This document shows, piece by piece, positions 11,150-52,703 of a stretch of 64,000 nt of DNA. Origin of the DNA: Henricia sp. BOLD:AAB3569 (Eukaryota > Echinodermata > Asteroidea > Spinulosida > Echinasteridae); assembly GCA_037783545.1 (NCBI GenBank), contig JBBELK010000636.1:496001-560000 (forward strand), in the 5' to 3' direction. A model generated the notes under the pieces. The model was not told the origin of the DNA. It did no database searches and worked only from the letters and a program-made list of their open reading frames with translations. The position numbers were made by a program, and so were the translations under genes. Numbering within the stretch: the stretch's first letter is position 1; each line of letters begins with the position of its first letter.

Positions 11150-11171
11150 CCCCCCCCCCCCCCCCCCCCCT
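11150..11171 (-). repeat. Poly-C run between gag-like and RT regions
   Basis: More than 15 consecutive C at the gag-RT boundary of DIRS element 1 on the + strand. It is a likely replication or assembly slippage site and may add to the frame loss. Confidence 0.85.
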
Positions 11172-11493: not shown

Positions 11494-12840
11494 TCAAATT
11501 GCTACCGCACAGATTACCATCCCCGGTAATGGGAGCTTTTCGTAGTCTGGTTTTGGTATTGTCTGCCCAGCGTGTTTGCTGTAACTACTTGCCTGGAGGT
11601 CAAGCATGTCCAGCGTCGCTTCCTGAGCCATGCCTAACATACGAGAGGTAGACCCAATATCTATCCGCTCTTTTAGACTTTGGAAGGTCTGTTGATCTAG
11701 AGAGTCCTGTAGAATCTCTTCTAACTTAGAAACTTGTTTTGTTGCCGCTTCCAGCAGCCAAGATTGGGATACTGCGCATGCCATACCGATATTCGCCTCT
11801 TTTTCGATATTCATGAAGCGTCGATCAGCGACATTCAACATTTTATCGGCAAATTTGGGGGCCTCGGCTTTAAACCCAGGGGCCACTCGTCCAAGCTCAT
11901 GCACCATCAACGGGTCCAGTCTGGACGGCATCATATACTTCTTGTATAGTCCTCTTCTACAATCTTATACCGAGCCACAGCTGAAGCACGATACAGTGGG
12001 ATGCGTTCAGGGTTCCCCGCCCACAGATTGTCTATTAATTTCTTATGCCCAATAGCCAATGGGAGATGCACCTTATTACGCTTAGCCTCAAAACATGTTG
12101 AGGTAATCTCGGGTCTTCTCGGGGTCTTCTCATTCTTTAAAATGGGCATTCTTTATCGGTAGGAAATGAGCTACTTCTTTCACAACATCAAAGAATGCAT
12201 CTGTGGTAACATCCTTGCCATCAAACTCTAGCACGGTGCCCTCAAAATCACGGTCCGCTATACTAGAAGGATCTGGTTCCCAACCCACTTGGCTGATTGA
12301 ATTTTGGGGGGAAACATCTTCCTGGACCGACTTGCGTTTAAAATTGCCCATTGAAAACCGAGACGAGGATTCATCAAACAGCTCCTCCGGCTGAGGATGC
12401 AACAATAACGAATCACCACTGTCAGCAATACTGTCATGGTTGCCTTCACGTGACAACCTTGCAAGTCTAAAGCCACTAGAGCCCCCCACAGAGGCACCTG
12501 GCTGGTGGTGGACAGTAACGTGGCCCTCGGCCGGAGCAGCCGATTCAAAAGAAAACTCATTTACAGGGCGAGAGGTGTAAGAGGTACGGGCTGGGCTCAA
12601 TTCCTGAGTAAGCCCACTGACCGTATTTTGCATCATTTGCTGCATGCGCTTTTCAAAATTGTCAAAGCTCTGTTGAAACTCTGCCCTATCGACATAACGG
12701 TCAGCAGGCGAGACATTAGCAGGAGTCTGTTGTGGGTTGCGCAGGGCCTGTTTGGCAGCTTCATCCGCCAATTTCTGCCTGTTCTTCTCCTTTGCTTCCA
12801 CTACAAAGGAAGACCACAATTCTGCGAACATAATGCCCAT
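11494..12840 (-). pseudogene. DIRS element 1 gag-like ORF1 remnant
   Basis: The first part (12840-12130, 236 codons from ATG) is acidic and Ser/Gln-rich, with a coiled-coil-like stretch (FQQSFDNFEKRMQQMMQN). Next to its stop, the overlapping frame MPILKNEKTPRRPE continues the same protein, showing a single frameshift near 12140. A second shift near 11935 leads into PLMVHELGRVAPGFKAEAPK and on to about 11494. Position before RT and the lack of enzymatic motifs fit a DIRS ORF1 (gag-like) protein. Confidence 0.65.
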
Positions 12841-13355
12841 TAGTTGACATAATTCACAATTATGTCCATTAGCGGCACTTTAAACAGAGTGAATGCGGAT
12901 CATCCATTCCTAAAACTCGTCGACATGATCCACCAGAACATGATTTAGTCCCGTCATGCTGCGAGGGACATGTGGGATTACCGGCCATGCCGCCAATTTT
13001 CTCCATTGCCGCCATTTTGGAAACTCCCCACGAGAGATCCACAGGCAAGCTAGCTTACACTGTTTTGTTGTTAAATCTGCCACCTGCAGCAGCAGCAGAA
13101 TTTTAACACAACAATTAGTACTCCGGGCCTAAACCCCAATATAATTTGCTATACTCGCGCAATCCGACTAGGGTTCTGAAACCCTAGAAATCTTCGCGAA
13201 CTTTGTAGTTTTTCTACGATGGCACGAAAAAACACAACTGAATGGGATGATGCACAAAGAAACACTGGTGCGCATGCATGGAGTGGATGGTCAGGGGACC
13301 CAGATGTTGGCACGTTGTTTTTTCTTTGAGTACAATTGGATGGTGGTTTGGGGAA
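12841..13355 (-). other. DIRS element 1 5' leader region
   Basis: Noncoding sequence between the 5' inverted repeat and the gag-like ATG (minus sense). It has a short CAG run (gcagcagcagcag) near 13088 and an inverted pair ctagggttctgaaaccctag at about 13168-13188. No gene seen. Confidence 0.55.
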
Positions 13356-13408
13356 CTGTCCTATTAGTAAATACCGAGGCAGAAGTAAGTATACGAATGC
13401 GAAAGAAT
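13356..13408 (+). repeat. DIRS element 1, 5' inverted terminal repeat
   Basis: Partner of the inverted copy at 2599-2653; about 50 bases are nearly identical. Sequence beyond GAAAGAAT diverges at both sites, marking the outer boundary. LINE sequence begins immediately outside. Confidence 0.8.
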
Positions 13409-23484: not shown

Positions 23485-25045
23485 ACATTTTTTTTTTACA
23501 CCACTGCGAGGGGAATTTGGCAGAAAACGCACCATTTCACTGCTGGTGAAAAGACTATACCCGACTAAAGTTCCCCGTACGTATTATACATGTGCTATAC
23601 AATGCGCTGTATATGTGCATGTAGATTGTGTACGTACGTACGTACGTGTACTGTACATGCAAGATAAATTTCATGATTGATTAGAAAGGGGAAAAAAAGA
23701 ACTGCATACATATTAAAATATCAGCCAAAGGATCAGTCCATATTTTTTTATGTTGAATGAATGGTGAAATATTTTTGTAAAAAAAAAACACCATCGATCG
23801 ACAACATGTCCCAAAAGTATGTATAAGCCCATAGGCCTAAGGCATATGTCTGTTCTAAACCATCATACGCGCTATTATCAACTCCTGTCATAACTTCTAA
23901 CCAATCAAACGTTTTGATCGTCCTTTCGAAATGACGTTGCGATCGTTCTTTCGAGACGACGTTTCGATCGTCCTTTCGAGACGACGTTGCGATCGTTCTT
24001 TCGAAATGACGTTGCGATCGTTCTTTCGAGACGACGTTTCGATCGTCCTTTCGAGACGACGTTTCGATCGTCCTTTTGAGACGACGTTGCGATCGTTCTT
24101 TCGAAACGACGTTGCGATCGTTCTTTCGAAATGACGTTGCGATCGTTCTTTCGAGACGACGTTTCGATCGTCCTTTCGAGACGACGTTTCGATCGTCCTT
24201 TTGAGACGACGTTGCGATCGTTCTTTCGAAACGACGTTGCGATCGTTCTTTCGAGACGACGTTTCGATCGTCCTTTCGAGACGACGTTTCGATCGTCCTT
24301 TCGAGACGACGTTGCGATCTTTCCTTCGAGACGACGTTTCGATTGTCCTTTACGAGACGACGTTTCGATCGTCCTTTACGAGACGAGGTTTCGATCGTCC
24401 TTTCGAGACGACATTTCGGTCGTTCTTTCGAAACAACGTTTCGGTCGTTCTTTCGAAATGTGCGTTTCGATCATTCTTTAAAAACGTTTCGATCGTTCTT
24501 TCGAAACGACGTTTAGGTCGTTCTTTTAAAACACTTTTAGATTTATTTTTTTTAAACACTATAATTTGCCCCTTGAAGCACTTTTTGTTACCTATAAAGT
24601 CACTTTTCAAACATTCCCTCCAAACACTTTTTCAATCACTTCTTCTAAATACTCCGAAAATTCTGATGTTGAGAATTGTAAAATTCTTTAGAATTACCCA
24701 GTAAAAGCATCAGTCATGTCAGTAGGTGCATATTTGATATGGAAAAACCCCGTTGAGGGTGGGGAAATATAGAAGACTTTCACAGGGAACACATATTTTT
24801 CAGCCTATGTGTAGTATCATTAAACTATGTTTTGCATACAAGATCTCGAAGCCAAGATCGGCTACCCCTCATTTTTTTCTGTGGTGAAAAGTCACCGGTA
24901 TCATCGTCGACAGACACGCGGTTTGCTTTGCAGTCATTGGCTTATGGGGCTTATTACGCATGCGCGACTTTTTTCGTAGTCTTTGTACGTGCGCTGTAAC
25001 ATAGGATTACCCCTCGCAGTGGTGTAAAAAAAAAATGCGCGGCCG
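23485..25045. mobile_element. About 1.55-kb TIR element inserted in the minisatellite
   Basis: Ends are ttttttttttacaccactgc followed by gagggg on the left and the complement on the right (about 25013-25036). Minisatellite units (gccgggatgc on the left, ggccgggatagcttcgggct on the right) flank both sides in the same orientation, so the element split the array. Its core is the 25-bp cgatcg minisatellite. No coding capacity. Confidence 0.7.
23920..24540 (+). repeat. 25-bp minisatellite with CGATCG core
   Basis: About 25 tandem units alternate between tttcgatcgtcctttcgaga-cgacg and ttgcgatcgttctttcgaga-cgacg. Variants degenerate toward the right end. Each unit carries the palindromes CGATCG and (T)TTCGA(A). 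Translation yields a repetitive RSF-RDDV peptide and is not taken as a gene. Confidence 0.92.
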
Positions 25046-26369: not shown

Positions 26370-27925
26370 TTGACTTGCACTCATCAGAGCAAAATGCAAG
26401 AATGGCGTGGTGATGCTATCGACGATAGTATAATAGGCTAAAGGCGGGAATGACGTGTTCAGAATGCTGAGCGTTAATTGGTCAGCTCGATAATGGCAGG
26501 GAGCACGCCACTGCGCACGCGCAGTTAGATTACATGGAGCATATGTACAAATTCTCCCCGACGATACAACACAGGTTTTGTGAAGTGAATGAATGTAGCC
26601 TCGAGCATGTGCAGATGCATGATACTGCGTGCTCTGGCCAGTACAGTGAACTGCTGTTTGCTGTATTGTTTCGAGCACTCCGTGTGATCAAGCAAGTCCT
26701 ATAGCAGATGTGCATTCGGGCTGTGTGGCAGCTTTGCGAGCGTTCTTGCAGACACGCGACGGCTGTTTGCGGAAAGCAGGCAGGTTGCTGCGGATGGAGG
26801 ATGGAACGTTCTGTTTAATGCGATCCGCTAGTCTTTGGGACGAACGACCTACGTACCAAGCTTCACATCGGCACCGGAATTCATAGATAACATTAAGTTG
26901 TGTGGTAGGTAGTACGTCTTTACGGACTTCAGGAAGTAACTTACGCGCAGTGAATATTAAACGGTGTAATAGGCGCGCGTCACGGCTTTCGTCAGTTTGT
27001 GAAACTTTCATCTCCACGGTACTTTAACATAAATTTGTTCGGTCCGTGAGGTCGCGGTTTAGAGCAGTTTGCGAGTGAGAGGGATACATGTTTGCTTATT
27101 ACTGATTCGGGATAGCCGTTTTCGCGCAGGATTGACTTGATGGTTTAATTATTTCGTCGTGTAGCTTACACGGCCGGGGGAACAGATGTTTGCTGCTCTT
27201 GACATCAGTACATTGATCAAGCCTATTTTGTACCGTGTAGCACTAAATGAGTCCCATCGGGTGTACTGTCCTGTAAACGTAGGTTTCCGGTATACAGAAG
27301 TGGTAAAGCCGGTGGGCGTTTTCTCAACCAGAACGTCTAGGAATAGAAGAGAGCCAGATTGCTCCATCTCGTGGGTGAACTTGAATGCGGGATGGAGACC
27401 GTTTAGCCTATTGAGGAAGGCTTTGCATGTTGCAACTGAATCGAACACAGCAAATGTGTCGTCAACATAACAGTATACACGAGTGGCGTGCATTTCACAG
27501 GTATAGATCAGCAAAAGCCCGCTTATCATGGTAGCCAACGAAAATGTTTGCCAAAATCGGACCCAGTGGTGACCCCATAGCCACGCCATCTGTCTGTGTG
27601 TACGTGTCATTGAAACTGAATTCAACTCCCTTTAATTCGTGGCTCTATTCATGAGCTTGACAAAGGCGGATTCAGACAAAGAGGGTGGTTGAGTGCTGTG
27701 GTATAACTCTTGCGTGCAGATCCGAACTGTTTCGTCAAGCAGAACGTTTGTGAAAAGACTGGTAATGTCAAAAAAGCACATCGATACCTGTTAAAGTTGG
27801 CAATTGAGAGTACACGCGCGTATTCCTTCGGTGAACGTAAACGAATCCTTGATGACATGCAGTGTTGTCCAGAAGCGCTGGCTGCCGGTAATTTCACCGA
27901 CTACTCTGTCATTTGCCGCCGGCTA
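26370..27925 (-). pseudogene. Penelope-like element, copy A (RT plus GIY-YIG endonuclease)
   Basis: Minus-strand blocks in order: FFDITSLFTNVLLDET, TQTDGVAMGSPLGPILAN, CYVDDTFAVF (the catalytic YVDD), HPAFKFTHEMEQSGSLLFLD, YRKPTFTGQYTRWDSFS. After a gap comes VIYEFRCRCEAWYVGRSSQR with LADRIKQNVPSSI, the GIY-YIG endonuclease. RT followed by GIY-YIG defines Penelope-like retroelements. Several frame changes inactivate it, and the 5' part is missing or unrecognisable. It is antisense in the last RMDN intron. A second copy lies at 37665-38815 in the other orientation. Confidence 0.9.
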
Positions 27926-28259: not shown

Positions 28260-28623
28260 CTGAGTGGGTTAGTCCCCTTTTAATTGTCAATCGAATGACA
28301 AATGCACGTTGGCACGGCCAGGTTGGAGCGGGAACCAGTCTATTGTAATCCTAACCCGTGTCCAGATTAACGCGACGATACTGCGTTTTGCAATGGAAAC
28401 AATAGGTTGAGGTTGGAAAAAACCGCGCAAGAAAGCGGCCAAATTCATCGATTTTTCTGACCTTTATTTCTAATTTACGTGCAAATGGTTCAAATGTGAA
28501 CAAGAGGAATATTAATCAGCATGTCCCAAACTACTTATATCCGAAAAAAAAAGTTGCCCCTAAAAAGTTAAGACGAAACTGCAAGATACGGACCTTTTGC
28601 CTATGGCCTACACCCTTACAGAA

Positions 28624-28993
28624 ATGTAAGCTTGCCGCAAGCTTGCCTTAAGCTTGTTATTAAGATTGCAGTCTTGTGTGCAAGCTTGTGTGCATGCTTG
28701 CTGCAAGCTTGCATGCATATCTGCAAGCTTGCACGTAGCTTGCAGCAAGCTTGCAGCAAGCTTGCAGCAAACTTACAGGCCATGTGCAAGCTTGCAGCAA
28801 GCTTACAGCAAACTTGCAGGCCACCTGCAAGCTTGCAGCAAGCTTACAGCAAACTTGCAGGCCATGTGCAATTAAGCTTGCAGCAAGCTTGCACGCGAGT
28901 CTGCATGCTTGCAGCAAGCTAGTATGTGTGCCTGCGAGCTTGCAGCAAGCTACATGTACACGTACATGTGCGTACAAGCTTGCAGCTAGCTTG
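28624..28993. repeat. Minisatellite of AAGCTTGCAGC type, array 1
   Basis: Units of 10-12 bp built on caagcttgcagcaagcttgc, with some longer units containing cttacagcaaacttgcaggcc. The core GCAAGCTTGC is palindromic, so both strands look alike. A second array of the same type lies at 37324-37652. Open frames on both strands (up to 139 codons) are repeat translations. Confidence 0.92.
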
Positions 28994-29548
28994 CATACAC
29001 ATGTGCCTGATGAGAAAAAAATTCCTACATATAAAAATTTCCTACCCGGTACGTATAATAATCCGTTTTTTATTTGCATTTTCTCAATTCAATAGCATTT
29101 GTTTACAAATTTTTTTGTAAACCTTTTCTTCATATAAATTAATTTCTAGATCTGCAACAAATAATTGCCTTAATTAGAAAGAAAAATATAAATCCTTAAG
29201 TTCTGTAGTCCATACAGTAATTGTCCAAACTTGTTTGGAAAACAAACAAGCTTCCAGCTTATAGCAACATAAATAAGACTAGTTGATAATAAAATTATTG
29301 AACCTTTTTACTTTTATTTATTTAGACAAAAAAATAAAAAAATGAATGCAATGCCAGGTTCCATTTATTTGCCTAATCTCCTACACTTTTAACAATGAAG
29401 ATTGAGAACCAGTCTAGGGATATACACTATCTCTGGTTCCCTGACTCCAACATTAAACAAGTGAGCATACAGTAGCAGCAGGAACCAGACTTTTGTAACT
29501 GCATGCTGGTTTGAAAGTGTTGCAAGGGCTGGAAATCCAAATGTGGTG
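28994..29548. other. RMDN intron, no gene seen
   Basis: AT-rich sequence between the minisatellite and the second DIRS element. It contains ggaaccag phrases (about 29408-29488) shared with 4.9 kb and 28.3 kb. Nothing else is recognised. Confidence 0.5.
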
Positions 29549-29729
29549 GATTATTACACTGAACTGCTTACCTTGTTCCATAGTTGACTGAACAATTGCA
29601 TTCCTTTCGCGAGAATGGAATCACCCAAATAAACACAAAAAACACCCCCTCTAGCCCATGTGGTCTAGCCCTATGACCCCAGGTCATGCCATGTGGCCCA
29701 ACAATCGTCCTCACTTTTCGTTTGGCTTC
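29549..29729 (+). repeat. DIRS element 2 left terminal repeat
   Basis: Begins gattattacactgaactgct. The inner part (from ccatagttgactgaacaatt through ccacatgg-type blocks to caatcgtcctcactt) is the near-perfect complement of 36440-36592. The first 30 bases instead pair with 36293-36322 of the internal region. Confidence 0.88.
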
Positions 29730-30178
29730 ACCCTGGACCAGACGTACTTCTGTAGTGCTCCGGTGTTCAGCCAATTTCGAGATCGGTTTCTGTCTAAGTT
29801 TCCGTACAGTCTCCTGACAGACACTCCGTTGGGACGCTTCCAAGGACCTGTTATCTCCTGGATCGAAGCGACTCTAAAGCGGATTTCCACTTCCATATCC
29901 TTTAATAAGATCGTGCGGTTCCTGTTCTAAACTCGCACGAGGGATCGGCCGTCCCGACACCATTTGTTTTGGCGTGGGCTTCGGCCTCTTAATTGTATTC
30001 AGGTGTAATTAATACAGTGTATTTTTTTTTTTGTGATATGTTCGTTCCGCCTTGCTTCCTTAACCTTATTCGCTCTAGATCTCAGTAGATTACTCGAGCG
30101 GGTAGTGTCGGCCAGTCCCGACACTCGGTTAATTTTTGCAGCTTGCGGCGTGCATATCCACCTGGTACAGCCCCTGCT

Positions 30179-31193
30179 ATGGCGCGTAAATGCAATTCCA
30201 TGAACTGCTCGCGCCCTATTCCCCGCTGGGACCCTCACCCTTCATGCTCTATTCAGACCATGCAGCCGCAGAGCCCAGTGTTCCTTGTTCTGCTCGGGGC
30301 TTACCGATGCGCAGTTTACTGCTATTGAGCGAGGCTACACTATAGTTCCGCGCAAGCCGCGTAGCATCTCAGCTAGCGCGTTGGGTGAGGGAAGGGGAAA
30401 TCTGGGGGTTTCTGATGGGAATGGTGCCCAAGAGGGCTCCGGTACCGTCGTTAACCCCGACAGGGCTCCGGTCCTCGTGCCTACGGTGTCTTCGGGTACC
30501 GCTACGGGCACGAAAGGCGAGTCATTAGCTGGATTGGCTAGGCCGATCCGTGCGGAGGGCTCGCGGTGCACGACCAGCGTGGAGGACGGGCATGGCCCAG
30601 CCTCCTTCGCTAACGCTGCACCCCCGGCCGATCAGCAAAGCGAGCCCAAGGGTGGACCGCTGTCGCTGGTCGAGAGAGCTCAGCTCGGTGTTTCCCAGGG
30701 GGTCTCACTGACGCAGAGTTCTCTGGGCCGGCAAGTCGTGACCGCTCCGGGTTCCGGGCCAGGCTCGGATCCCCCCCGCGGTTACGCCCCGGCGTGCGGC
30801 CCGCCTACTAGTTCCATGTCGGAGCTAGCGTGGCGGGCGGGGTCCGTCTTCCGAGATGAACCCCAGGGCACCCCCGGCCGATCAGCAAAGCGAGCCCAAG
30901 GGTGGACCGCTGTCGCTGGTCGAGAGAGAGTTCAGCTCGGTGTTTCCCAGGCAGGGGTCTCACTGACGCAGAGTTCTCTGGGCCGGCAAGTCGTGACCGC
31001 TCCGGGTTCCGGGCCAGGCTCGGATCCCCCCCGCGGTTACGCCCCGGCGTGCGGCCCGCCTACTAGTTCCATGTCGGAGCTAGCGTGGCGGGCGGGGTCC
31101 GTCTTCCGAGATGAACCCCAGGGAAGCTTGCCTTTCCACAGCGCGCCGGGTAACTGGCCTCCCTACGCACAACCCTGTGCGGGAGCCGGCTAG
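30179..31193 (+). pseudogene. DIRS element 2 gag-like ORF1 start
   Basis: ATG opens MARKCNSMNCSRPIPRWDPH, then PSC; Cys-rich starts with WDPH-x-x-C are seen in ORF1 of some DIRS-like elements. A frameshift near 30260 moves into the frame CSGLTDAQFTAIERGY and then a low-complexity Gly/Ser/Pro-rich protein. A 250-bp direct duplication (units starting 30618 and 30868) is embedded here. The rest of ORF1 is scrambled by indels in the module repeats. Confidence 0.5.
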
Positions 31194-33010
31194 GGCGCGG
31201 TGCAGACTTCCCCGGTGTACGCACCGGCGGTAAAAGTCCCGGTGGTTCCTTACACAGCCGAGTCTTCGGTTGCGGGACCACCCTCGCACCGCGCATGGGA
31301 GGCGGAGAGGCCAATGTTTATTAACCACTCCACTCCCCAAAGCCGGGCCGCATGGAACAGGGACGGAGCTCCCTGGTCCACGGTGCGACTGTCCTCGATG
31401 ATGGCCCAGTCGGCCACCACACCGACAGTCGTCACCGCGGCTGCCAACTCAGCCAGGGGCAGCACTACGTGCGGCCCCGCTGAGACACGGCTAACTTGTT
31501 CCGTGTTGGCGCCACGGACTTCCTCCCTTGTTGGGAGGAACTCGGGAGCGCCAGGGGTTGTTTACTCCGGGGCTCAGACCGGTCTGTTCGACCGCTCCCA
31601 ACCCCCTAGACAAACCCTGGGGTGGACCCCGCAGGCGCATCAGTCGGACGTCCGACTTATGCGTCACAGGCAGGTTACCCCCGAGATCGGATGGACTGCC
31701 CGTCGGGCCCTCCTCCGTATACTCGGCTAACCCTGTGCCGTATTACCCGGTGGGTGCTCACCAAGACACGTCCTCGGCCCGGTCCTCGTTGGGTTTCTTA
31801 CCCAGCTGGCCTTCCGCCGATGCACACCAGCCCGGGCAGTTGTTTCCTGCCCATCGGCTCGTGTCAGACGTGCACCGGGGTACGGCATCAGCCAGCTACA
31901 CCTCCCGCGTGCGGCCCGCCTACTAGCTTGCCACGTGGAGCTAGCGCGGCGGGCAGGGTCCGTCTTCCGAGACGAACCCCAGGGAAGCTTGCCTTTCCAC
32001 AGCACGCCGGGAAGCTGGGTCGCGGTGCAGACTTCCTCGGTGGACTCACCGACGATAAGTCCCGGGTTCCCCTTGCAGCCGAGTTTCGGCTGTAGGACCC
32101 CCACGCACCGCGCAAACGGTTGGCTCGCGAACCGCTTAGGGTTTCGGGCTAGGCTCGGATCCTTACTGCGGTTACGCGCTGCCGACGTGCGGCCCGCCTG
32201 CTAGCTCCATGGCGGAGCTGGCGTGGCGGGCGGGGCCAGCCCCTCGGGGCAATTCCCAGGAAAGCTTGCCTTTCCTCAGCACGTCGGGGATGTTGTGTCC
32301 TTGGTACCGTTGTGTGCTGCTGTGGACACAGCAGAGCGTGACCGCTCTGAGCTCCGGGCTAGGCTCGGATCTCCTTTGCGGTTACGTGCCTCCGGTGTGC
32401 AGCCCGCCTGATAGCTCCATGTCGGAGCTGACGTGGCGGGCAGGGTTAGCCCTCGCGGGCAAGAGTCCTTACGAGCAATTCCCAGGAAAGCTTGTCTTTC
32501 CTCAGCACACCGGGGAAGGTCAGAGTTGTCCGCTCCGGTCCGACGTGCAGCACGCCTGCTAGCCCCATGTCGGAGCTGGCGTGGCGGGCAGGGCCTGCCC
32601 CTCGTGGACTACCCCAGGGAAAGCTTGCTTTCCCTCAGCACGCCCGGAAAGTTAGTGCGGCCCGCCTACTAGCTCCACGTCGGAGCTGACATGGCGGGCG
32701 GGGCCAGTCCTCCGGGACAACCCCCAAGTAGGCTTACCTTCCTACAGCACGCGGGACAACTCTGGAGAGCGTACCGCTCCTCTGACGTGCGGCCGCCTGC
32801 TAGCTCCACGTTGGAGCTGGCGTGGCAGGCGGGGACAGCCCCTCGTGGGCTATTCCCAGGAAAGTATTCCCTTTCTCTGCACGCCGGGGAAAGTTGTGTC
32901 CCCGGTGCTTGTCGGCGCCTCTACGGACACTGCGGTTACGCGCCGCCGACGTGCGTCCATCCTGCTAGCTCCTGCGGGGAGCGCGGAGCTGGCGTGGTGG
33001 GCGGGGCCAG
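30780..33010 (+). repeat. Nine-copy GC-rich module repeat in DIRS element 2
   Basis: Each copy centres on gtgcggcccgcctactagct, ccatgtcggagctggcgtgg, cgggcggggccagcccctcg and aagcttgcctttcctcagca. Centres are at about 30819, 31074, 31936, 32210, 32421, 32570, 32680, 32810 and 32985, so spacing varies from about 110 to 860 bp. One frame of a copy reads SELAWRAG...ESLPF, but the reading frame is not kept from copy to copy. It is therefore either a decayed repeated protein module or a DNA-level repeat. Confidence 0.85.
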
Positions 33011-33499
33011 TGGCTCAGCAGCCAGGGCGGCGGGTTTTTCAGGCTCCCTTGTTTGCTGGTACGTGGCACCCCATCAAGGGACACCCATCAAGGGAACCTG
33101 TTTCCCAGATTACGGGGCCTGTTGTCCCTTAGTCAATCTGGCCCAACCGCCCGTACGGCTCAGGAAATGGAGAGCATTCCAGCCGCGGTGCTAGGCTGTT
33201 TTGGGGCATCCCTTATGCCCACGGAATGCCGCCTCCTTTCCTACGAAGACCTCCTCAGGAGGACTTTGTCTCTTCCTACGGAAGCCTCCCATGGATGTCG
33301 ATATCGCTAAGCGACCACCAAGAGGTGGCCGCCCACGATCACAGACAATCCTTGAGTATCGTGGCCTCGTCAGATGTTCGGACGGGCCCTCACTCCTGGC
33401 GGCCTCCCCGGGCCTGCCAGTCGGGGGCATTCGAGACCTTTCTCAGGCGCATTCCAGGACAGACGGAATAACGCCAGCGTGCCCCTCCATTCAGTTCCT

Positions 33500-35280
33500 A
33501 GTTCTGACCTCGTAACTGGGGTCAACCCCTGACACGAACCGTTCTCTTCGAGGACTTGTTTGCGTCTCGGTTCTTGGACTGGCGGATGAGGCCGAAAGCG
33601 AGATTAGGCCAGGATTGTCAGTTGCTTATTAGCGACCCGCCCAGTGGACTAGGACACTAGAGCGTGCACCACTGTTCGGTGGGTGCTTCAAGTCCGTCCT
33701 AGCGGCGTAGGTAGAGCGGTGCTGCCTCCACCCCAATTCGATCAGACCGTATCCTATAGCTAAGACACTGCTATATGGACAGGACCGTCCGACTTCCGCC
33801 TTCCAAGGTCAAGAGACCGCGGAAGGCGAAGCAGGGCTGTGACGGTTGGTCCTCGGACCGCCGTTTTTACACTCCTTTGGGACGGTCGCCGAGGTCTCCG
33901 CGCCCGGGAGGGGCCCCCATTCTCCCGGGCCCATGGGTCATGGTGGTCAGCAACCGGGGGTATCGCCGTGTGTTTGGCGACTTCTTCCCCCTCAGTGACT
34001 TTGTCCCTAAAGTCATCACCGCTCCCTCCAGAGGGGAACAGAAGAGCGACCCACTCCGAATGTCTACCACTGAATACGTTCCCCGGGACGGGGGTTCAGA
34101 AGGGGGACATTGACCAGCGCTCTTCGGTGCCCGCTCTAGGGCACGTAGGCATCCTTGACCCCAGGGATGCCTACTAGCACGTCCCTATTTATGGCCTGCG
34201 ACCAGCGGTGACCCAGGCTTGGCACCTGGGTCAGTCGTTCGTCTGACGTGCCTCCCCTTTGGCCTTTCCGTATCATCCGGTTTTCACGGTGATCACCAGG
34301 GTGAACGGAGCATACTTCAGGTGGCGGGAGTCAGTTAAGGTTGGGATCTCTGGTCTATCTCAAAAATTCCTCATGGCTCCCTGCCAGGCCCTGGTGTGCC
34401 TGGGTGCCCGACCACATCTGAGTTAGTCGGGGTACCCATCGGCGGAATGGAAATGGATCCCTTAGGGCCCTCGCTCACCGCTTTTGGCGGAGCTAGACGG
34501 CCCTGTCCGCCCCTGGCTCTGCCTGCTGGATCTTATGGCAAGTACATACATACGTTCTCGCCATATGTCCGCTTTTGCAGGGATGTCTCCGGTTGAAGCG
34601 TTACAGCAGGCTCCCAGACTCCCAATCAGTCCCAACGACGGTCCTGATAGGGACGAGCTCGCCTCGTGGAACCCCCATCCAACCTGACGCGGGTCTGTCT
34701 CCCCCGCACGCATCCATTCGATCGGACGCGTCTGGTCAGGCTGCCTGTTAGGCGCACGAGTATCCGGGACCTGCTCCCAGGATTAAGCTTGCTCATACTC
34801 CAACCTCCTCGAACTACGGGCGGTCGGGCAGCCCCCGCTCCTTTAGTTCGAAGCGACGGTGGCTGGAGGCAACATCCTTGTTCGATCGGACATAACAGAG
34901 ACAGGATCTCCTCTCTGTCCGCAGTCCATATACCGGGTACGGTTTATCTGTCCGCCGCGGCCTCTCTTGAGGCAGGGCGTCTTGCGCAGAATGGATCCCG
35001 AACCTGGATATAACCCAGGAGATCTCCACGGACTTCCACGGATCGATCTCCTTGCCTCCGCGATCAGTCGCCAGCCCCCAGGGCATTGCTCCAGGGTATT
35101 GCTCCAGGGTCCCCGACCCAGGAGAATATGCAGTCAACACTCTCTCGGACCGAAGGACGACTCCCTCTTTTGGGAGTCCCCCCATGGGGACGTTCCGCCC
35201 ATGGTCCCGACTCCCTCTTTTGGGAGTCCCCCCCATGGTCCCGTTCCGCTCTTTTCTCTGAAGCGCTTATGAGGACTGCT
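33500..35280 (+). pseudogene. DIRS element 2 degraded RT and RNase H region
   Basis: Motif remnants appear in the expected order across all three frames. ILPGPWVMVVSNRGYRRVF lies just before the RT domain. VGILDPRDAY and HVPIYG correspond to motif A (LDLKDAYLHVPI). LDLMASTYIRSRHMSAF resembles the connector, followed by NILVRSD and AVHIPG (RNase H) and IDLLASAISRQ (the DLFAT connector). No single frame carries them, so at least five frameshifts are present. A 50-bp direct repeat (ctccctcttttgggagtccc with ccatgg) occurs at 35160-35240. Confidence 0.55.
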
Positions 35281-36267
35281 TCCTAGGCTGCTGGAGAGAG
35301 TAGATCCTGACTGTACGGCCACTTCCCGGCGACGTTGCCATGAGAAGGGCCTCCCTGGGGGGCCTTCGTCACCATCGCCACCGGGGAAAGTGTCTACCCC
35401 GCCGATTACTCTGACGCTTGGGTCCCTTCTATCGGTGGTGTGACGGAAGAGGTTGCTCCCCCACTAGAACGCTGTAGCTCTAGTTGCGGGATCCCTCTCT
35501 GAACGCCTTGTGTCGGGCCTTATCTACATGGCTCTTTCGGCTCTTAATTCTGGCGGTTCATTGAGGGCTCTGAGGTAGGCTCGAACATCTACGGTGATGA
35601 TTCTCGCTTCGGCCTCTTGGAAGGAATGCCTGTTTGAGGCCGCCAAGCCTGTTCTCTCGTTCCGGGAAACGTCCTCATGAGGGCCACATCCTGTTGGTGT
35701 TGCCTAGACTTTCCGAGTGCTAGGCCTCCCTGTTCTCCGTTCAAGACGCTGTTGTCTGGAACAGGTCTGCATCCTTCCCGCACTCGGCTATCCTCCCTGG
35801 AAATTAACTATTCCTCTGGATCGGGGGATCGCCTTGGTGCCCGGTCAGAGTCCCGGTCAGTCCGCTGCTCTCCGGGACCCGACCGACCTTCTGTTTGGTT
35901 CACGCATTCCCCCACCGTCTGGCGCCTAGTGGTTGCCGACCAGGTGGATATGCACCGGGTTCTCTGGCGGTGCTGTGGAAGGCTCTAACTCCTTCTCTTC
36001 GGGCTTCTCGGGCATTATGCCTGCCCGGAAGGAGTTTTCCATTTCCATGCTGCCAAACAGAGTCCAGTCAGTCAGAATCATAGTTGCCCTAGAGTCCTCC
36101 GGGAGGTACTCCCCCTCTGGGCGGAGTCTCCCCTTAGTTCGTTCTCTACAGGGGTTTTTGAGTCTGACCTGTCTGCGCATTGCCATGTCCTAGCCCTGAC
36201 GTGCCCGGAGCCCTTGATTGTTGACATCTTGCTCCGACCTCCAACTAAGTGTGCTAGTCTGGAAGTT
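35281..36267 (+). other. DIRS element 2 3' region, recombinase expected but not readable
   Basis: In a DIRS element the tyrosine recombinase should lie here. The base composition stays GC-rich and coding-like, but I could not read a convincing HxxR block in any frame. Short open frames are at chance level. Treat as a decayed YR by position only. Confidence 0.35.
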
Positions 36268-36390
36268 GAATGCAATTGTTCAGTCAACTATGGAACAAGG
36301 TAAGCAGTTCAGTGTAATAATCTGTTACGAAACATATTGTGTTTCTTAGATTATTTATACTGAAGCCTGCTTACCTGTCCATAGTTGACT
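36268..36390 (+). repeat. DIRS element 2 internal complementary region
   Basis: The first 55 bases (36268-36322) are the complement of the left end (29549-29603). The next 68 bases (36323-36390) are the complement of the right end (36577-36644). The junction between 36322 and 36323 therefore marks both element ends. I compared the bases directly and saw no mismatch worth noting. Confidence 0.9.
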
Positions 36391-36439
36391 CCCACGCCGT
36401 ACCCGCCCCACAGCAAGATGTGTACGTCTTTGTTGTCGG

Positions 36440-36644
36440 GCCAAACGTAAAGTGAGGACGATTGTTGGGCCACATGGCATGACCTGGGGTCATAGGGCTA
36501 GACCACATGGGCTAGAGGGGGTGTTTTTTGTGTTTATTTGGGTGATTCCATTCTCGCGAAAGGAATGCAATTGTTCAGTCAACTATGGACAGGTAAGCAG
36601 GCTTCAGTATAAATAATCTAAGAAACACAATATGTTTCGTAACA
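36440..36644 (-). repeat. DIRS element 2 right terminal repeat
   Basis: The inner part complements the left repeat almost perfectly over about 150 bases. The outer part (caggcttcagtataaataat through tttcgtaaca) is unique to this end and complements the internal region. Confidence 0.88.
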
Positions 36645-37323
36645 ATATTTCTCATCTGAAATCAGCTTTATCAGGCCTCTTTTTACTTTACTAAGGTAAT
36701 ACTTGCACAAATTAACAAAACTGAAATAATGATATTTATGGATATTTGGCCACAGATCAGAGCAGGATCCATTTGTTTATTGTGTAGACCATGGAGCTAC
36801 ATGTATAAGCCTACATGTATATGTGTATAGACAAACCATTGTATTGTTCATTATCATGTTCACACATGATGAACAACATTGTTCATTGTAGGACACTAGC
36901 AAGAATAGATTTATTTAGTCTTAGATAATTATTTTACCTACAAATATCACTAGGTATCAGTGTCAGGAAGTGTAAATTTTACATAAAAATTAAGCAGTTA
37001 GTTTAGCTTAAATTTAGCAGAAAAAAAGATGCTGTGATACCAGGATATAGCCATGCACTCTCAATCGGTCATGTCCTTGGTTTTTGCATGTGTACTGATC
37101 TTCTCATAACACCTCTGATTTATGCCTAAATTCATTTTGTTTTAATTTTTAGCAATTAATGCATTCCTTTCAGCTGCTCAGCTGCTCATCTGCTCATAGA
37201 GCAAGGAACATGCAGTTTTATCTTGTTAGGTTTACTCAACAAAACTCAAAAGCTTCAAATTTTTCTAAGTTGTCCCTGCGGTACATATATTAGCTTGCAA
37301 AATTTCATAAATTCCAATCCCGG
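36645..37323. other. RMDN intron, no gene seen
   Basis: AT-rich sequence immediately outside the DIRS element, with TACATGTA and a gttcat/atgaac inverted cluster near 36845-36890. No feature recognised. Confidence 0.5.
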
Positions 37324-37655
37324 CAAGCTTGGGGCAAGCTTGCTGGCGAGCGGTAGGTAAGCATGTAGGCGAGCTTGCGGCAGGCTTGCGGCGAGCTTGC
37401 CGTCGAGCTTGCCGTCGAGCTTGCAGCAAGCTTGCGGCAAGCTATACTGCAAGCTTGCTGCGAGCTTGCAGCAAGCTTGCGGCAAGCTTGCATGCTGCGA
37501 GCTTGCGGCGAGCTTATGGCAAGCTTGCTGCGAGCTTGCAGCAAGCTTGCTTGTGAGCAGGTAGGCAAGCTTGTCTACAAGCTTGTCTGCAAGCTTGCCG
37601 CAAGCTTGCAGCAAGCTTGTCTGCAAGCTTGCCGCAAGCTTGCAGCAAGCTTGGA
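37324..37655. repeat. Minisatellite of AAGCTTGC type, array 2
   Basis: Units such as cgagcttgcggcaagcttgc and cagcaagcttgtctgcaagc. It has the same palindromic core as the array at 28.6 kb but a higher content of gcg and ctg variants. It runs directly into Penelope copy B. Confidence 0.92.
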
Positions 37656-37664
37656 AGATTTCTG

Positions 37665-38815
37665 TAAGGGCATGTACCGGAAACCTACGTTCACAGGACA
37701 GTACCGATGGGACTCATTTAGTGCTATAGGCTTGATCAATGTACTGGTGTCAAAGAGCAGCAAACATCTGTTCCCCGTGTAAGCTACATGAGGAAATACA
37801 CCATATCAAGTCAATCCTGCGCGAAAACAGCTATCCCGAATCAGTAATAAGCAAACATGTATCCCTCTTGCTCGCAAAGCAAGAAGAAGAAGAAGACGGA
37901 CCGAACAAATGTCCCGTGTATGTTAAAGTACCGTGGAGATAAAAAGTTTCGAACAACAAGTGACGAAAGCCGTGACGCACGCCTATTACACCGTTCAGCC
38001 ACATGTAATATTCACTTCTGGCAGTCTGTAATAACATACTACCTACCACACAACTTAACAATGTTATCTACATGTATGAATTTCGGTGCCGATGTGAAGC
38101 TAGGTACATAGGTCGTACGTATAAAGACTAGCGGATCGCATTAAACAGCAAGTTCCATCCTCCATCCGCAGCAACCATGCCTGCTTCCCGCAAACAGCCG
38201 TCGCGTGTCTGAAGAACGCTCGCAAAGCTGCCACACAGCCCGAATACACATCTGCTATTGAGCTCGTGCCAATGACGTCATTTTGGGAGTCAAATAATGC
38301 CGCGTCGTTGTGGAAGCAATGTGCGTGCGCGTTGTGTGTGTCCATAGCGTGCGTAACGCGCAATGCTAATAAGGCTCCCGTGAAATAAATCGCGTTACGC
38401 CCACCAGAGACACACACAGCGCGCACGCACATCGCTTCCACAATGACTCAGCATTATTTGACTCCCAAAATGGCGTATTTGCACGCGTTCGAAGGGGGTC
38501 AATAGGACAACACTTAATACTTGATCACCCCGATCGAGTGCTCAAAACATTACAGCAAACAGCAGTTCACTGTACTGGCAAGTGCACGCAGTATCATGCA
38601 GCTTCACATGCTCGAGGATACATTCATTCACTTCACAAAACCTGTGCTGTCGTCGGAAAGAATTTGTACACACGCTTTATGTAATCTAACTGCGCGTGCG
38701 CATGCAGTAGCATGCTCCCTGCTGTTATTGAGCTGACCAATTAACGTTCAGCATTCTGAACACGTCATTCCCGCCATTAGCCTTGTACTATTGTCGATAG
38801 CGTCACCACGTCAGA
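37665..38815 (+). pseudogene. Penelope-like element, copy B (5'-truncated)
   Basis: Starts abruptly inside the RT at YRKPTFTGQYRWDSFS, next to the minisatellite. It continues with HHIKSILRENSYPESVI, DESRDARLLHR and remnants of the endonuclease region, then the 3' flank shared with copy A (ctcaaaacattacagcaaac, cacttcacaaaacctgtgct, ctcgaggatacattcattc). The flank is interrupted by the 38.28-38.48 kb TIR element. Orientation is opposite to copy A. Many stops and shifts; inactive. Confidence 0.85.
38275..38476. mobile_element. 200-bp TIR element inside Penelope copy B
   Basis: Left arm cattttgggagtcaaataat and ttgtggaagcaatgtgcgtg; right arm is the complement (cacgcacatcgcttccacaa and attatttgactcccaaaatg). 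The homologous stretch of Penelope copy A (around 26.70 kb) lacks it, so it inserted after the copies separated. Confidence 0.75.
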
Positions 38816-41078: not shown

Positions 41079-41343
41079 GTATACACCGTATCGAATAGCC
41101 GCCATTTCGTGGGGCAGTTTCTTTGTTCCTTGGGGACATGCATGGTTGCACATATTGTGCTTCCATTATTGAACGATTTAAGTAACGAAAGGTGCCGCAC
41201 GAAATGGCGGCTATTCAATACGGTCTATACTCGCTGCTTCTCCGAGACACTATGAGAAAAACGTCATAGCGTGCTCGGGTTCGAGTCCCACCCGAGCACG
41301 CTACGAAGTTTTTCTCATAGTGTCTTTGGGAAGCACTGAGTAT
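41079..41343. repeat. Two adjacent inverted-repeat elements
   Basis: The first (41079-41230) has arms accgtatcgaatagccgcca and tggcggctattcaatacggt. The second (41229-41343) is a hairpin with arms of about 52 bp (gacactatgagaaaaacgtc, atagcgtgctcgggt) around the loop tcgagtccc. The loop and arm tip form a tRNA B-box-like ggttcgagtcc. A related end (cctatcgaatagttgccatc) occurs at 42008. Confidence 0.75.
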
Positions 41344-42059
41344 GAAGTGCTAATCAAATTACATCGAGTAGGGCAAAACAAACTCTAATTAACCAAATTC
41401 GAATTGTACACCAATTTACTTCTTGTGGAAGTTGGTCTATAAGCTATTTCACACCACCCAAAATCTATGTGATGGACACAAGTTTGATTTGTATAATATT
41501 GCCATATCTTTTTCACATTGCTAATAATAGTTCAAGTATTGGCAGATTGGAAATTATGTGTCTTGGGAATTAACGCACGTGTATACTGTATAATGCACAT
41601 AAAAGGCACATAGATAATTGTTTGGGAAATGTCACTAGAATTGTGGAAAACTGCTGCAGTTTTAACCCTTATTTTTCCCCATGACTTGAATACATGTGGA
41701 ACAAAAATGAACAGCCAATGATTAAAATAGTTTCAAAGATTTATGGAATGTGGTTTTCCTGTGTTTCCCTAATGTTACATCACAATTTTGCTCATGGATA
41801 TTCATATTCGTATTAGCATAAAACCAAAACCTTAAATTTAACCCCCAAAAAAAATTTCAAATAGGGTTTTATGACAGTAACTGAATGTAATGCTTGTGTA
41901 TAGATTTCATTGAAGAAAAAAAATACCATTTCACTGCCCTTTAATGTCTCTGCCAGTTTATTATATATACACGCACAACAAATGTAAATATTGGTAGTTT
42001 ATAGACCCTATCGAATAGTTGCCATCTTGCCAGGGTAACGTTTGAAATTTAAATCTGTC

Positions 42060-42660
42060 AACAATGTAAGCACAAAATGTAGGTACACACCAGCCTACTG
42101 TTTACGTAATTTAGTGATACAGCGTCCTTGACAATAATTTTGTGATGGTCCTTGTGAAAAAATATCGTAAAAATGTCCCGTAATTAACCACAAAAGCTTA
42201 AAATTAATAATAACGGTCAATAGTCGAGTTATACGCTTTACCAACCGTTCACTATCGCGCGAGACTCGTTCACGACTTTTTGGAAACGATTCGCTCTTCA
42301 CTAAGCTTGGCAGCTTTTTGCTTTGGATATCTCTCATTTTCTGCTGAAGATTTCTCTCGACGACCGAATGGGTTTTTCCGTTTTCTGTAGAGGAGCTGAC
42401 ATAGTTCATGGTTTGTCTTCACGAACGTACAATTATAGTTCAACGGCAATGTACCGGTTTTGGGCAGGCAAGTTTGTGTGCCGTGGGGCTAAATGTCACA
42501 CTGTCCGGTAGACTGTCCACCGTGGAACTCGCTTCGGTTCCTCGGACTTATGTGTCAAAATTTTATGTTCGATTTTTCAAGGGTCTGACTATTTGCAGAC
42601 GGCAGTCCGTTTTGTCGCTAGCAGACGACGGTAGTGGTTCGAAAAATACAACTTGACCAA
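42060..42660 (+). repeat. Dispersed repeat family R2, copy 1
   Basis: Shares the order cctactgtttac, tgatttagtgat, ttatacgctttacca, acgattcgctcttc, gaccgaat and cttcacgaacgtaca with 51995-52560. The copies are diverged. The second copy carries an extra 101-bp hairpin insertion. No coding capacity. Confidence 0.7.
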
Positions 42661-45928: not shown

Positions 45929-46623
45929 AAGCACTGATTATTTTTTTCAAAAAGGTGAGTTTTGCCATCTCAGGTGAGAAGTACATACATGTACTTAGGC
46001 CCGTTTCAAACGTTGCGCTTGTGCCGTGTTGAATAAAATTCCTCAATTAAACGAATGAAGTAAAGTTCGATGGGGTAACCAAAGGGTGGCTACCAACTGT
46101 CAATGTATCATCCGTTGACCAAACTAAGCTATACTGTGCACCCGTACGGACTGACAAAAAGGTCAGAAATTCTAAGGCATGTGCTATAGAGGCTCGAATA
46201 GGATTGACAGACCGTTCACGGCAGAAACGTATACCATTTCATAATAGCTGAGCAGTACTGCTTTCGGGCGCTCGGTTTCCAGGCTTGGATGATGATATTA
46301 ATAGTTATCTTTGAGAGTCCTCTTGCGCTGAAGGATTTCCTGATAATAATAGCCCAGCACACAGCTAGCGCTAAACGGTGCTGTAGAGGATGTCGCTCGT
46401 CTGGTGCCTGGGGTAGACGCAACAGATTGCTCACCGCAGGAAGGACGACTGGTGTTCGGATGAGAACCCGTATAGTAGCCTGGTAAACCAGATCTGCGTT
46501 GTCCAACGCGAAAAAAACCCAAAATAACTGTTGCTCGTTCTCTTTCTACTTTCTGTAGTACCCTGTAAGGGTAAAAGCAAAAGGGGGAAAGAGCAAAAGG
46601 GGGGAAGCAATAAGCAATTTCAT

Positions 46624-48141
46624 TTTCCCACAAAGCCAAGAATGCATCGCAAGCTGATGCCTCGGGGTCGGGGTGCCATGACACAAACGGCTTGAATTGA
46701 TAATTAATTATTGAGGCAAACATGTAAATCGTTGGTCTAACTCTTAGTTTCGAAATTATCTGTCGGAAAACACGGGCGTTTAGTTGCCATTCCAAATTGT
46801 TTTAAATGACCGAGACAGACGGTCAGCAGAAACGTTTAGTTTGCCTGGAACATGGCGGGCAATCGGCCAAATGTCATGTTGCAAGCACCAAAACCACAGT
46901 TTCCTTGACATATAATTAATATATGGTTTATGTACGACACTGCCGTCGTGTTACCAAGTTCAATAGAAACAAACTTTCCCCTTAAATGTGGAAGGAAGGA
47001 TTTCATATACAGGGTGTTTTTTTAAAAAGGAAACCGAGATTAATTTGTTAATTTCATGGAGATGGCTAAATATTTTGGAAATTGGCAACCACCATCTATT
47101 AGCTAACGATGTCCTCTTTCTTATGACACCACGAAATCCAATTTACGGTCACACATGACTGAGCACGGAGCAGTGTAATCAACCATGTCAGAACTGGTCT
47201 TGCACCAAAAATATGTTTTCATAATGGGCCTCCAAATTATGCAATCCTCAGCCTGTTATTTCATTGCACACTCCTTAAAAGTTGGAAAGGTTGTTCATTT
47301 TCTCAGATGGTATTTTCGGATGTTTTTCCAAATTGTCGACTTGGTGGGAACGGCACGGTAAGGAAAACGCTGACCAAAGGCATCTGCTACTTGCTGGAGG
47401 CTTCCAGTCCTCAACCACTCTGTTATACCACAAACACACGCTGCTCAGTTGTAAGCTGCATTTTGCTGGTCTGAGAAAATGAACAACCTTTCCAACTTTT
47501 AAGGAGTGTGCAATGAAATAACAGGCTGAGGATTGTTCATTATGAAAACATCTTTTTGGTGCAAGACCAGTTCTGACATGGTTGATTACACTGCTCCGTG
47601 CTCAGTCATGTGTGACCGTAAATTGGATTTCGTGGTGTCATAAGAAAGAGGACATCATTAGCTAATAGATGGTGGTTGCCAATTTTCAAAATATTTAGCC
47701 ATCTCCACGAAATTAACAAATTAATCTCGGTTTCCTTTTTTTTTAAAACACCCTGTATATGAAATCCTTCCTTCCACATTTAAGGGGAAAGTTTGTTTCT
47801 ATTGAACTTGGTAACACGACGGCAGTGTCGTACATAAACCATATATTAATTATATGTCAAGGAAACTGTGGTTTTGGTGCTTGCAACATGACATTTGGCC
47901 GATTGCCCGCCATGTTCCAGGCAAACTAAACGTTTCTGCTGACCGTCTGTCTCGGTCATTTAAAACAATTTGGAATGGCAACTAAACGCCCGTGTTTTCC
48001 GACAGATAATTTCGAAACTAAGAGTTAGACCAACGATTTACATGTTTGCCTCAATAATTAATTATCAATTCAAGCCGTTTGTGTCATGGCACCCCGACCC
48101 CGAGGCATCAGCTTGCGATGCATTCTTGGCTTTGTGGGAAA
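46624..48141. repeat. 1.5-kb palindrome in the third retroelement
   Basis: The left arm (46624-47306) and right arm (47471-48141) are inverted copies of about 675 bp with small indels; a 164-bp spacer separates them. The outer part of each arm is retroelement coding sequence (HVPGKLNVSADRLS through DAFLALWE), readable on the minus strand in the left arm and on the plus strand in the right arm. The inner part is a TACAGGGTGT-ended element. Small differences between arms argue against a simple read-chimera artefact. Confidence 0.88.
47008..47757. mobile_element. 750-bp TACAGGGTGT-ended element at the palindrome core
   Basis: Both ends read TACAGGGTGTTTTTTTAAAA in inverted orientation, and TA is repeated outside each end (catatacaggg...ccctgtatatg). 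Inner arms include aaccgagattaatttgttaa, ttcttatgacaccacgaaat and tggaaaggttgttcattttc. The terminal decamer matches the element at 16124-17035. Confidence 0.7.
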
Positions 48142-51994: not shown

Positions 51995-52560
51995 AGGTAC
52001 ACACCGGCCTACTGTTTACATGATTTAGTGATGTAGCAGCATTGACAATACTTTTTTGATGGTCGTTGTGAAAAAAGTGCAAAATTAACAAAAACGGTAA
52101 AAAGACGGGTTATACGCTTTACCAGCCGTTGCAACTATACGCGCGAGCCTCACGACTTTGGGCGTGTTTGTTTCGGACGAATCCGCCGATTCAACTATGC
52201 ATAGCGCTGAATCATCTGCGCAGATCGGGATCGGCAGATTCGTCCGAAACAAACACGCCCTTTGTCACAAACGATTCGCTCTTCTCCTGCTCAGGATATC
52301 TCCAATTTTCTGCTCACAATTCCACTGGACAGCCCGGACGACCGAATAGGAATTTCCGTTTTCTTTTGAGGAGTTGGCATCATGTTTTTTCTTCACGAAC
52401 GTACACCGAAGCAACACATGTATGTGTGTGTGTGCACTCAGGCTATTTGCCGTGCTGCGCGGGGCAAATATCACCTTCCTAGTAGCCTGCCGTAGCACGC
52501 GCTCGCTCCCGTTCTCCGGACTCTCGAAACAAACATTTATGTTCGAATTTTCATACTTAT
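51995..52560 (+). repeat. Dispersed repeat family R2, copy 2
   Basis: Homologous to 42060-42660, starting with cacaccggcctactgtttac. It is split by the 101-bp hairpin at 52160-52260, which the other copy lacks. Confidence 0.7.
52160..52260. mobile_element. 101-bp hairpin MITE with TTT target duplication
   Basis: Ends GGGCGTGTTTGTTTCGGACG and its perfect complement; TTT flanks each side (52157-52159 and 52261-52263). The homologous R2 copy at 42.25 kb has an empty site (cacgactttttggaaacg). This makes the insertion and its 3-bp duplication clear. Confidence 0.85.
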
Positions 52561-52703
52561 GTTTAACTTTGTTTCATACCTGTATAAATAGTATCTTTTT
52601 TGTCAATTACTTATAAATATTGGGGGGAAATCAGAGTTGAATTTGGTGCAGTTCTGCACTAACAAACTTTTATACGGCTGGAAATACAACTAACTCACAA
52701 GAC

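Follow-up and report, generated by a model that had tools for sequence, protein, structure and literature searches.

A DIRS1-like retrotransposon with decayed genes in the sea star Henricia sp. and its probable mobilisation in trans by coding relatives

Architecture of the element

A stretch of 64,000 nucleotides from the sea star Henricia sp. BOLD:AAB3569 (assembly GCA_037783545.1, contig JBBELK010000636.1, positions 496,001 to 560,000; hereafter the window) contains a 7,096-bp element (29549..36644), which a preliminary description, made from the letters of the window, had assigned to the DIRS type of retrotransposons. Element coordinates (E) given below equal the window position minus 29548. 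The element starts with GAT and the outer, 'divergent' part of its terminal repeat (29549..29576, plus strand), followed by the conserved part of the left inverted terminal repeat (ITR; 29577..29726, plus strand, 150 nt). Both belong to a 5' leader (29549..31782, plus strand), of which 29549-30248 and 31055-31782 are about 96% identical to a coding relative on contig C485. A GC-rich region of degenerate repeats (30618..33010; unit of about 107 nt, repeat families D1-D8) contains no conserved frame that we could find and shows no codon phase. The relics of the genes are followed by the internal complementary region (ICR; left half 36268..36322, right half 36323..36390, both on the minus strand), by the right ITR (36440..36618, minus strand), in which 36440-36589 is conserved and 36590-36618 divergent, and by a 26-nt right extension (rE; 36619..36644, plus strand), which holds an inverted repeat recognized by eye, GAAACA-CAATA-TGTTTC, with a spacer variant that covaries with the ICR.

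The left half of the ICR is complementary at every base to the left end (29549-29603, 55/55) and the right half to the right end (36577-36644, 68/68), so that the whole 123-nt ICR (36268-36390) spells, without a mismatch and on the opposite strand, the right end followed directly by the left end, as in a circular junction. Exact matches of 55 and 68 nucleotides greatly exceed what chance would give. The conserved repeats (29577-29726 and 36440-36589) differ at one position in 150, and this lone mismatch is common to the eight closest full-length copies in the genome (in the C469 copy it is shifted one position by an inserted base); it is therefore a feature of the family, and the focal repeat shows no change since insertion. 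A gapped comparison extends the match between the two repeats, with indels, across the outer 28 nt of the left one as far as its first base (blastn of 29549-29726 against 36618-36440: 96.1%), while the last 26 bases on the right have no counterpart in the left repeat and are complementary to the ICR only. Besides the single mismatch, the only differences between the two sides fall in sequence that the ICR holds in a separate copy for each. The termini are also fixed independently of the ICR: in copies that keep their ends, homology breaks at the same positions while the flanks differ, and base changes are present at a few copy ends (e.g. L012, L045, L051). The element thus presents the features of the DIRS1-like group, namely ITRs, a two-part ICR matching both ends, a right extension and no target-site duplication. 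The preliminary description had read the ICR as the joined ends of a circular intermediate, had placed both termini to the base, and had stated that many mismatches in the ICR or other boundaries in other copies would speak against it; its reading stands, since the copies that keep their ends share these boundaries, alongside truncated and rearranged ones.

Copies in the genome and their insertion sites

The genome was represented by an assembly of 740.7 Mb in 2,104 contigs, and all copy counts are lower bounds. The search for full-length copies that the preliminary description had proposed returned at least nine matches over the whole element, of which the eight closest, the window's own copy included, were compared with one another. 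Seven of them are 99.6-100% identical over all 7,096 positions, and the eighth, on C469, has a small internal loss. The ninth full-length match, on C132 (98.9%), and the copies with both ends on C279, C194 and C268 show internal losses or gains, and the remaining copies are truncated, rearranged, or members of subfamilies about 77-97% identical; fetching many loci by their right end has biased that end of the identity profile. The eight closest copies differ pairwise by 5-18 substitutions in 7,019-7,095 compared bases (0.07-0.26%), and the substitutions are almost all private (2-9 per copy, 3 shared sites). They lie on eight contigs, with different left and right flanks and the same ends. These copies represent a recent, star-like burst, in agreement with the recent activity that had been read from the near-identity of the terminal repeats.

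In some sets of copies a flank is shared (C2055/C1051; two copies on C904; C430/C134), and such copies may be duplicates or haplotypes. The copies L030 (C430) and L038 (C134) have the same right flank and exact right ends, with no ICR within the preceding 150-1000 nt. According to the model of replication, a copy without an ICR cannot make its own circle; hence in L030 and L038 either insertion was followed by loss of the ICR or another template supplied the ends.

Integration proceeds without target-site duplication. The longest direct repeat between the flank ends of 18 copies with both flanks measures 0 nt in nine, 1 nt in eight, and 9 nt in a single copy that sits in an ATA microsatellite. 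Furthermore, the joined flanks of three copies match unoccupied paralogues within the window with no gain or loss at the joint: C99 at 61634-61356 (96.4%), C1051 at 52401-52686 (90.5%) and C645 at 41229-41081 (90.6%). Matches of the C218, C279 and C194 flanks to empty sites have small gaps near the joint and were left out of the support. Repeats resembling unoccupied paralogues of other copies' insertion sites occur in the window at 7734-7789, 41081-41229 and 42010-42080, and the copies on C645 and C279 occupy a like place of one repeat, a hint of a preferred target.

Decay of the coding region

Relics of the genes were detected by frameshift-tolerant alignment to the proteins of C485, with 60 shuffles per piece; neighbouring queries overlap, and the lesion counts are not additive. 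Six of the seven query pieces are significant, on the plus strand and in the order gag, reverse transcriptase (RT), RNase H, tyrosine recombinase (YR), and none of the 60 shuffles reaches the score of any of them. They comprise the C-terminal part of gag (33256..33837; z=28, 49% identity, 4 stops, 9 frameshifts), the RT (33767..34406; z=38, 56%, 4 stops, 11 frameshifts), the C-terminal part of the RT to RNase H, whose query overlaps the preceding one (34270..34825; z=43, 57%, 2 stops, 8 frameshifts), the end of RNase H and the linker (34847..35468; z=41, 56%, 2 stops, 9 frameshifts), the N-terminal and middle part of the YR (35319..35768; z=26, 52%, 0 stops, 8 frameshifts) and its C-terminal part (35776..36118; z=11, 50%, 1 stop, 7 frameshifts). 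The relic at 34847..35468 occupies what we take to be the place of the methyltransferase-like domain in DIRS1; a Pfam scan of the coding relative's frame named no such domain, and no search was aimed at it.

With the proteins of a different DIRS element of the window (2.4-12.9 kb) and of a fragment at 46-47 kb, one of eight pieces is significant (RNase H-linker, z=5.0, 0/100 shuffles), the RNase H-linker piece of the different DIRS scoring z 8.8-18.3 in four relatives, and a tblastn search with the proteins of the 2.4-12.9 kb element did not detect the focal body. In Pfam scans of ten focal frames, and of the three frames over 33.0-36.4 kb with X at stops, no family passes, one match being at chance level (E=0.25).

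The preliminary description had judged the reading frames ruined, as the relics confirm, and had offered sequencing error in GC-rich DNA as one explanation. On this account the element would be autonomous and its frames broken by errors of sequencing or assembly, and it is true that the 4-kb blocks over the body reach 53-61% G+C as against 37-46% elsewhere in the window. However, the stop and frameshift counts in four pieces are equal within one across all eight closest copies, which lie on eight contigs with different flanks, and because the same damage recurs in all of them sequencing error is excluded as its source. Further evidence against it comes from the relics themselves, whose pieces are 49-57% identical in amino acids to the coding relative and each hold 0-4 stops and 7-11 frameshifts, and from coding relatives of this assembly, which retain long open frames. 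Across ten relatives, 1,253 variable positions fall evenly on the three codon phases (423/434/396), no 300-nt window exceeds the phase bias expected by chance (the maximum is reached by 451 of 500 permutations), and indels are mostly of 1-2 nt. We therefore give the sequencing-error account virtually no chance of being correct. From the equal lesions in the eight copies and the absence of codon phase it follows that the focal genes were dead before the burst of the present copies, and that the relatives tested likewise drift as non-coding DNA.

The same comparison bears on the suggestion that the GC-rich region encodes a protein of its own, so far unrecognised and relevant to mobility. Frames of 508 amino acids in L004 and L006, and of 329 and 178 amino acids in the focal copy, could be taken in its favour; however, few stops are expected from a GC-rich composition, and in the ten relatives there is no codon-phase bias and the indels are mostly not multiples of three. 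Such a protein is highly improbable.

Coding relatives and mosaic identity

Searches for RT, gag and YR converge on the same places in the genome. At C40:2837720-2844751 and C636:769212-776243, two copies of 7,032 bp each, measured from the left 27-mer to the right 23-mer, have the gag match in an open frame of 990 amino acids, the RT in one of 721 and the YR in one of 982, with no internal stops; the preliminary description had proposed to look for intact frames elsewhere, and long open ones are found there. The second of these places lies at a distance of about 237 kb on the contig to which the window belongs. In the coding relative C485 (L055, L048) Pfam recognizes RVT_1 (E=1.9e-17) and Phage_int_SAM_1 (E=1.1e-4), RNase H is weak (E=0.0027, under its cut-off), and the gag and C-terminal YR frames yield no Pfam family. 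The RT loci near the same terminal 23-mer or 27-mer, among the matches listed, are C40, C636, C485, C195, C79 and C175 (92-100% identical to C485), C475 (85%), C117 (74%) and C267 (67%). Of these, C40, C636 (at 769 kb), C485, C195, C79 and C175 are linked to the same 27-mer left end and/or the 23-mer right end or ICR as the focal element and, unlike it, have gag, RT and YR matches; these are long and open in C40 and C636, whereas the frames of C485, C195, C79 and C175, like those of C475 and C117, are shorter or interrupted.

It is possible that the helper is another DIRS family and not these coding relatives, given that other DIRS RT families with long open frames exist in the genome. However, among the matches listed, the RT loci found near the shared terminal 23-mer or 27-mer are those of C40, C636, C485 and their kin, and the DIRS at 2.4-13.4 kb of the window has different apparent terminal repeats. 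We regard a helper from another family as unlikely. In viral contigs neither a relative of the RT piece of the 2.4-12.9 kb DIRS nor an exact 26-mer of the focal inverted repeat was found.

The identity of the focal element to its relatives is mosaic. The leader of C195 is 96.5% identical over E 1-1320 and 95.5% over E 1320-2349, and C485 differs from the focal copy near the start of its left end. The focal body is about 62-77% identical to C485 in the aligned stretches, and the stretch from about E 3471 to 5345 is 95-96% identical to C1126, C429, C826 and C175, four gene-dead copies with 78-80% identity in the leader. This suggests exchange between coding and gene-dead lineages, e.g. by template switching, and a leader of the coding type may have fuelled the focal burst. 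The mosaic, with a leader about 96% identical to coding relatives and a body stretch 95-96% identical to a gene-dead subfamily, could also be expected if a dead element had been spread by segmental duplication or gene conversion, and the flank-sharing sets mentioned above point the same way. On the other hand, the flanks of all eight closest copies differ at base resolution, none of the eight shows homology past both ends, and the paralogous empty sites carry no duplication; spread by duplication or conversion has, in our opinion, very little to recommend it.

Covariation of the internal complementary region and the right end

A pattern allowing C or G at one position of the rE spacer finds 95 exact sites in the genome (its reversed control, 0). 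Eighty of these form 40 pairs of ICR and right end, 297-309 bases apart, and 15 are without an exact partner. The variant is concordant in all 40 pairs (21 C/C, 19 G/G, none discordant; Fisher 8e-12, a value inflated by kinship). The C469 copy is G/G and its seven near-identical sister copies are C/C; over the last 520 bases the two paired C/G positions are the only substitutions between it and the focal copy, beside two indels. A single mutation copied to both places would explain the G/G state of C469. The copy on C585 has a second variant, which likewise occurs in both the ICR and the right end.

Proposed mobilisation in trans

We propose that the focal element is a non-autonomous DIRS1-like retrotransposon, with decayed genes, that is still mobilised in trans by coding relatives sharing its termini, and we estimate the probability of this interpretation at about 0.88. 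The lack of functional genes, the recent multi-copy dispersal and the existence of gene-bearing relatives with the same termini together support mobilisation in trans, the other explanation that the preliminary description had offered. Our confidence in the anatomy and history of the element is high, and it is moderate as to which relative supplies the proteins. The gag, RT, RNase H and recombinase genes had already decayed when the present copies arose. In the proposed cycle, the element would be transcribed and reverse-transcribed in trans, the ends of its complementary DNA would be completed on the ICR, yielding a circle with the junction ...CGTAACA joined to GATTATTAC..., and a tyrosine recombinase, also supplied in trans, would insert the circle just before NTT(T)-like target sequences.

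Several observations weigh against this interpretation. The proposed cycle is drawn from genome sequence, mobilisation in trans is what we infer from it, and the C40 and C636 elements are known here as places and matches and not as read sequence. The N-terminal piece of gag fails in the focal body (z=1.4; reached by 7/60 shuffles). The correspondence between ends and ICR is not perfect throughout: of 51 rows, which include repeat fetches of the same insertions, two are without an ICR and in one a junction base is changed; the right ICR half is exact in 37/48 rows and has 1-7 differences from the copy's own right end in 11/48; and the left half is exact in 16/18 rows and differs from the left end in two. 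Finally, the G/G state of C469 may have arisen by exchange of one block holding both places, and the kinship of the copies makes the covariation look more significant than it is.

Polarity of the junction

The circle junction spelled by the ICR reads ...CGTAACA-GAT-TATTAC.... Of 21 distinct left ends, 20 open with GAT and one, that of C485, with GAA. The trinucleotide beside the right end (36645..36647, ATA in the focal copy) is never GAT among 33 distinct ends, where ATT occurs 10 times, TTT 7, ATA 5, GTT 4 and others 7; NTT accounts for 21/33. A staggered exchange of two strands, resolved by replication, should also yield reciprocal copies, which begin with the target trinucleotide and are followed by GAT. 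The fetched loci include no such copy, and the search for ends, which allowed up to 4 substitutions in 30 bases, would have recovered any among them.

A motif is apparent in the 33 distinct right flanks: +1 is A or T in 29 of them, and T occupies +2 in 30, +3 in 22 and +4 in 26. The left flank favours A at -1 (13/20). Flank positions +4 to +10 agree with TATTACA at 3.12 of 7 positions, whereas other offsets give 2.04, with a maximum of 2.67, and the agreement ranks second among 140 letter permutations; positions +1, +2, +5 and +12 to +14 disagree with the circle junction, so that a likeness of the target to the junction is suggestive only. We also considered as the crossover a 7-bp palindromic overlap (CAGATTA between GTAA and TTAC) and rejected it: copies differ from one another at -2 and -1 on the left, which places the visible join between -1 and +1.

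The polarity is compatible with a one-strand exchange, with biased repair, or with a flush exchange point. Integron cassettes, by analogy, are inserted as single-stranded circles. It is tempting to read the presence of the circle's trinucleotide at left ends, and of the target's beside right ends, as a sign that DIRS integration is strand-polar, and that insertion of a single-stranded circle by exchange of one strand, with the second strand made by repair, fits better than symmetrical crossing-over of a double-stranded circle; we offer this as a tentative and rather doubtful reading, and our confidence in its single-strand part is low. Strand polarity may be a general property of DIRS elements: in the 28-element table of PMC3266345, by our own count, which omits two elements whose junction is of 2 nt, 8 elements match the 3-nt junction at one end and not at the other, and 7 of these 8 do so at the start. 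A double-stranded circle is cited in PMC5941688, in a passage stating that the mechanisms remain to be demonstrated.

Comparison with known elements

The architecture of the focal element is already published and not new. The layout given for DIRS1-like elements in PMC3266345 comprises conserved and divergent ITR parts, a right extension, left and right ICR, a 3-bp circular junction and no target-site duplication. The focal sizes (divergent 28, conserved 150, rE 26, ICR 55-68) are like those tabulated there for elements of Anolis (AcDIRS1: 26/140/26, 40-58), Tetraodon (TnDIRS1a: 21/146/27, 36-57) and Saccoglossus (SkoDIRS2: 15/142/27, 63-65). With 7,096 bp the focal element is longer than those in the table (3,974-6,283 bp), and it differs from them in that all its genes are decayed and a GC-rich repeat region is present. 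Its junction trinucleotide is GAT, whereas 23 of the 28 elements are stated to begin and end with NTT; in the focal family the trinucleotide on the right, mostly NTT, is target DNA, while the published convention counts it as the end of the element (PMC3266345). PAT and Ngaro retrotransposons also use a tyrosine recombinase and have split direct repeats (PMC3266345, PMC9210276); we considered and rejected assignment of the focal element to either group, as its terminal repeats are inverted.

Phrase searches of the open-access literature found nothing on non-autonomous DIRS elements, on TOC1 tied to them, or on defective or trans-complemented DIRS-1, which does not prove absence. Among other retroelements, the non-autonomous LARD and TRIM keep cis signals and borrow proteins. 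TRE5-A.2 of Dictyostelium likewise keeps its cis signals and borrows proteins (PMC5633606), whereas an element of the focal type must keep the ICR besides the termini. In Xenopus tropicalis, 36 of 75 Repbase DIRS-like families are degenerate in terminal repeats and/or open-reading-frame domains (PMC9210276); the portion of that text available to us does not describe a gene-dead family with exact ends and recent spread. What is new here is a lively gene-dead lineage beside its coding relatives, together with the polarity of the junction.

Other features of the window and the genome

The second, different DIRS of the window (2403-12879, minus strand) has partly open frames, with Pfam matches to RNase H (E 8.6e-9) and RT (E 1.2e-6, just under the cut-off), a poly-C run at about 11149-11170, and a terminal-like repeat (2616-2658 / 13351-13393, 95% complementary). 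An inverted duplication of a DIRS RNase H-linker fragment lies at 46301-48141 (97%; arms 46624-47307 / 47470-48141). The focal element is flanked on both sides by inverted pieces, 26403-27292 (minus) and 37675-38813 (plus), 82-87% identical, with CAAGCTTGC-type arrays between them and the element (28613-28999 and 37320-37670); its insertion site may have been the loop of a large inverted repeat. The frames of these pieces yielded no Pfam family and, judged by eye, resemble Penelope-type RT and GIY-YIG motifs. Elsewhere in the window there are long hairpins at 55193-56071 and 60289-60980 (arms of 361 nt at 100% and 160 nt at 99%) and a tandem array with a 25-nt unit at 23809-24543, open in several frames.

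In the genome, 63 of 91 DIRS-like RT matches with 51-71% identity and frames below 400 amino acids have another within 12 kb (e.g. C121:1256706-1262435, C757:676069-682163, C412:1792794-1798490). Among 140 RT matches taken, 35 close neighbours comprise 30 divergent pairs (minus then plus), mostly about 5 kb apart, 4 convergent ones and 1 in the same direction. Several pairs have a gag match on one side only and no YR match near, among the matches listed; possibly they are head-to-head composite elements. About 25 gag matches, mostly at paired RT loci, hold exactly one TAG within query residues of about 5-146, and many resume at residue 151 in another row, which was in another frame where checked (C121). 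The shared stop and frame change could reflect a second non-autonomous DIRS family, an intron or recoding.

Implications

The focal family represents a DIRS lineage that persists without genes, as several subfamilies keep the ends and the ICR while the body drifts without codon phase. Such a gene-dead lineage isolates the cis signals of DIRS transposition, and the covariation between the ICR and the right end is evidence, from the comparison of copies, for the copying of new ends from the ICR. The polarity of the junction, in turn, offers a sequence test of the way in which DIRS circles integrate, applicable to any assembled genome.

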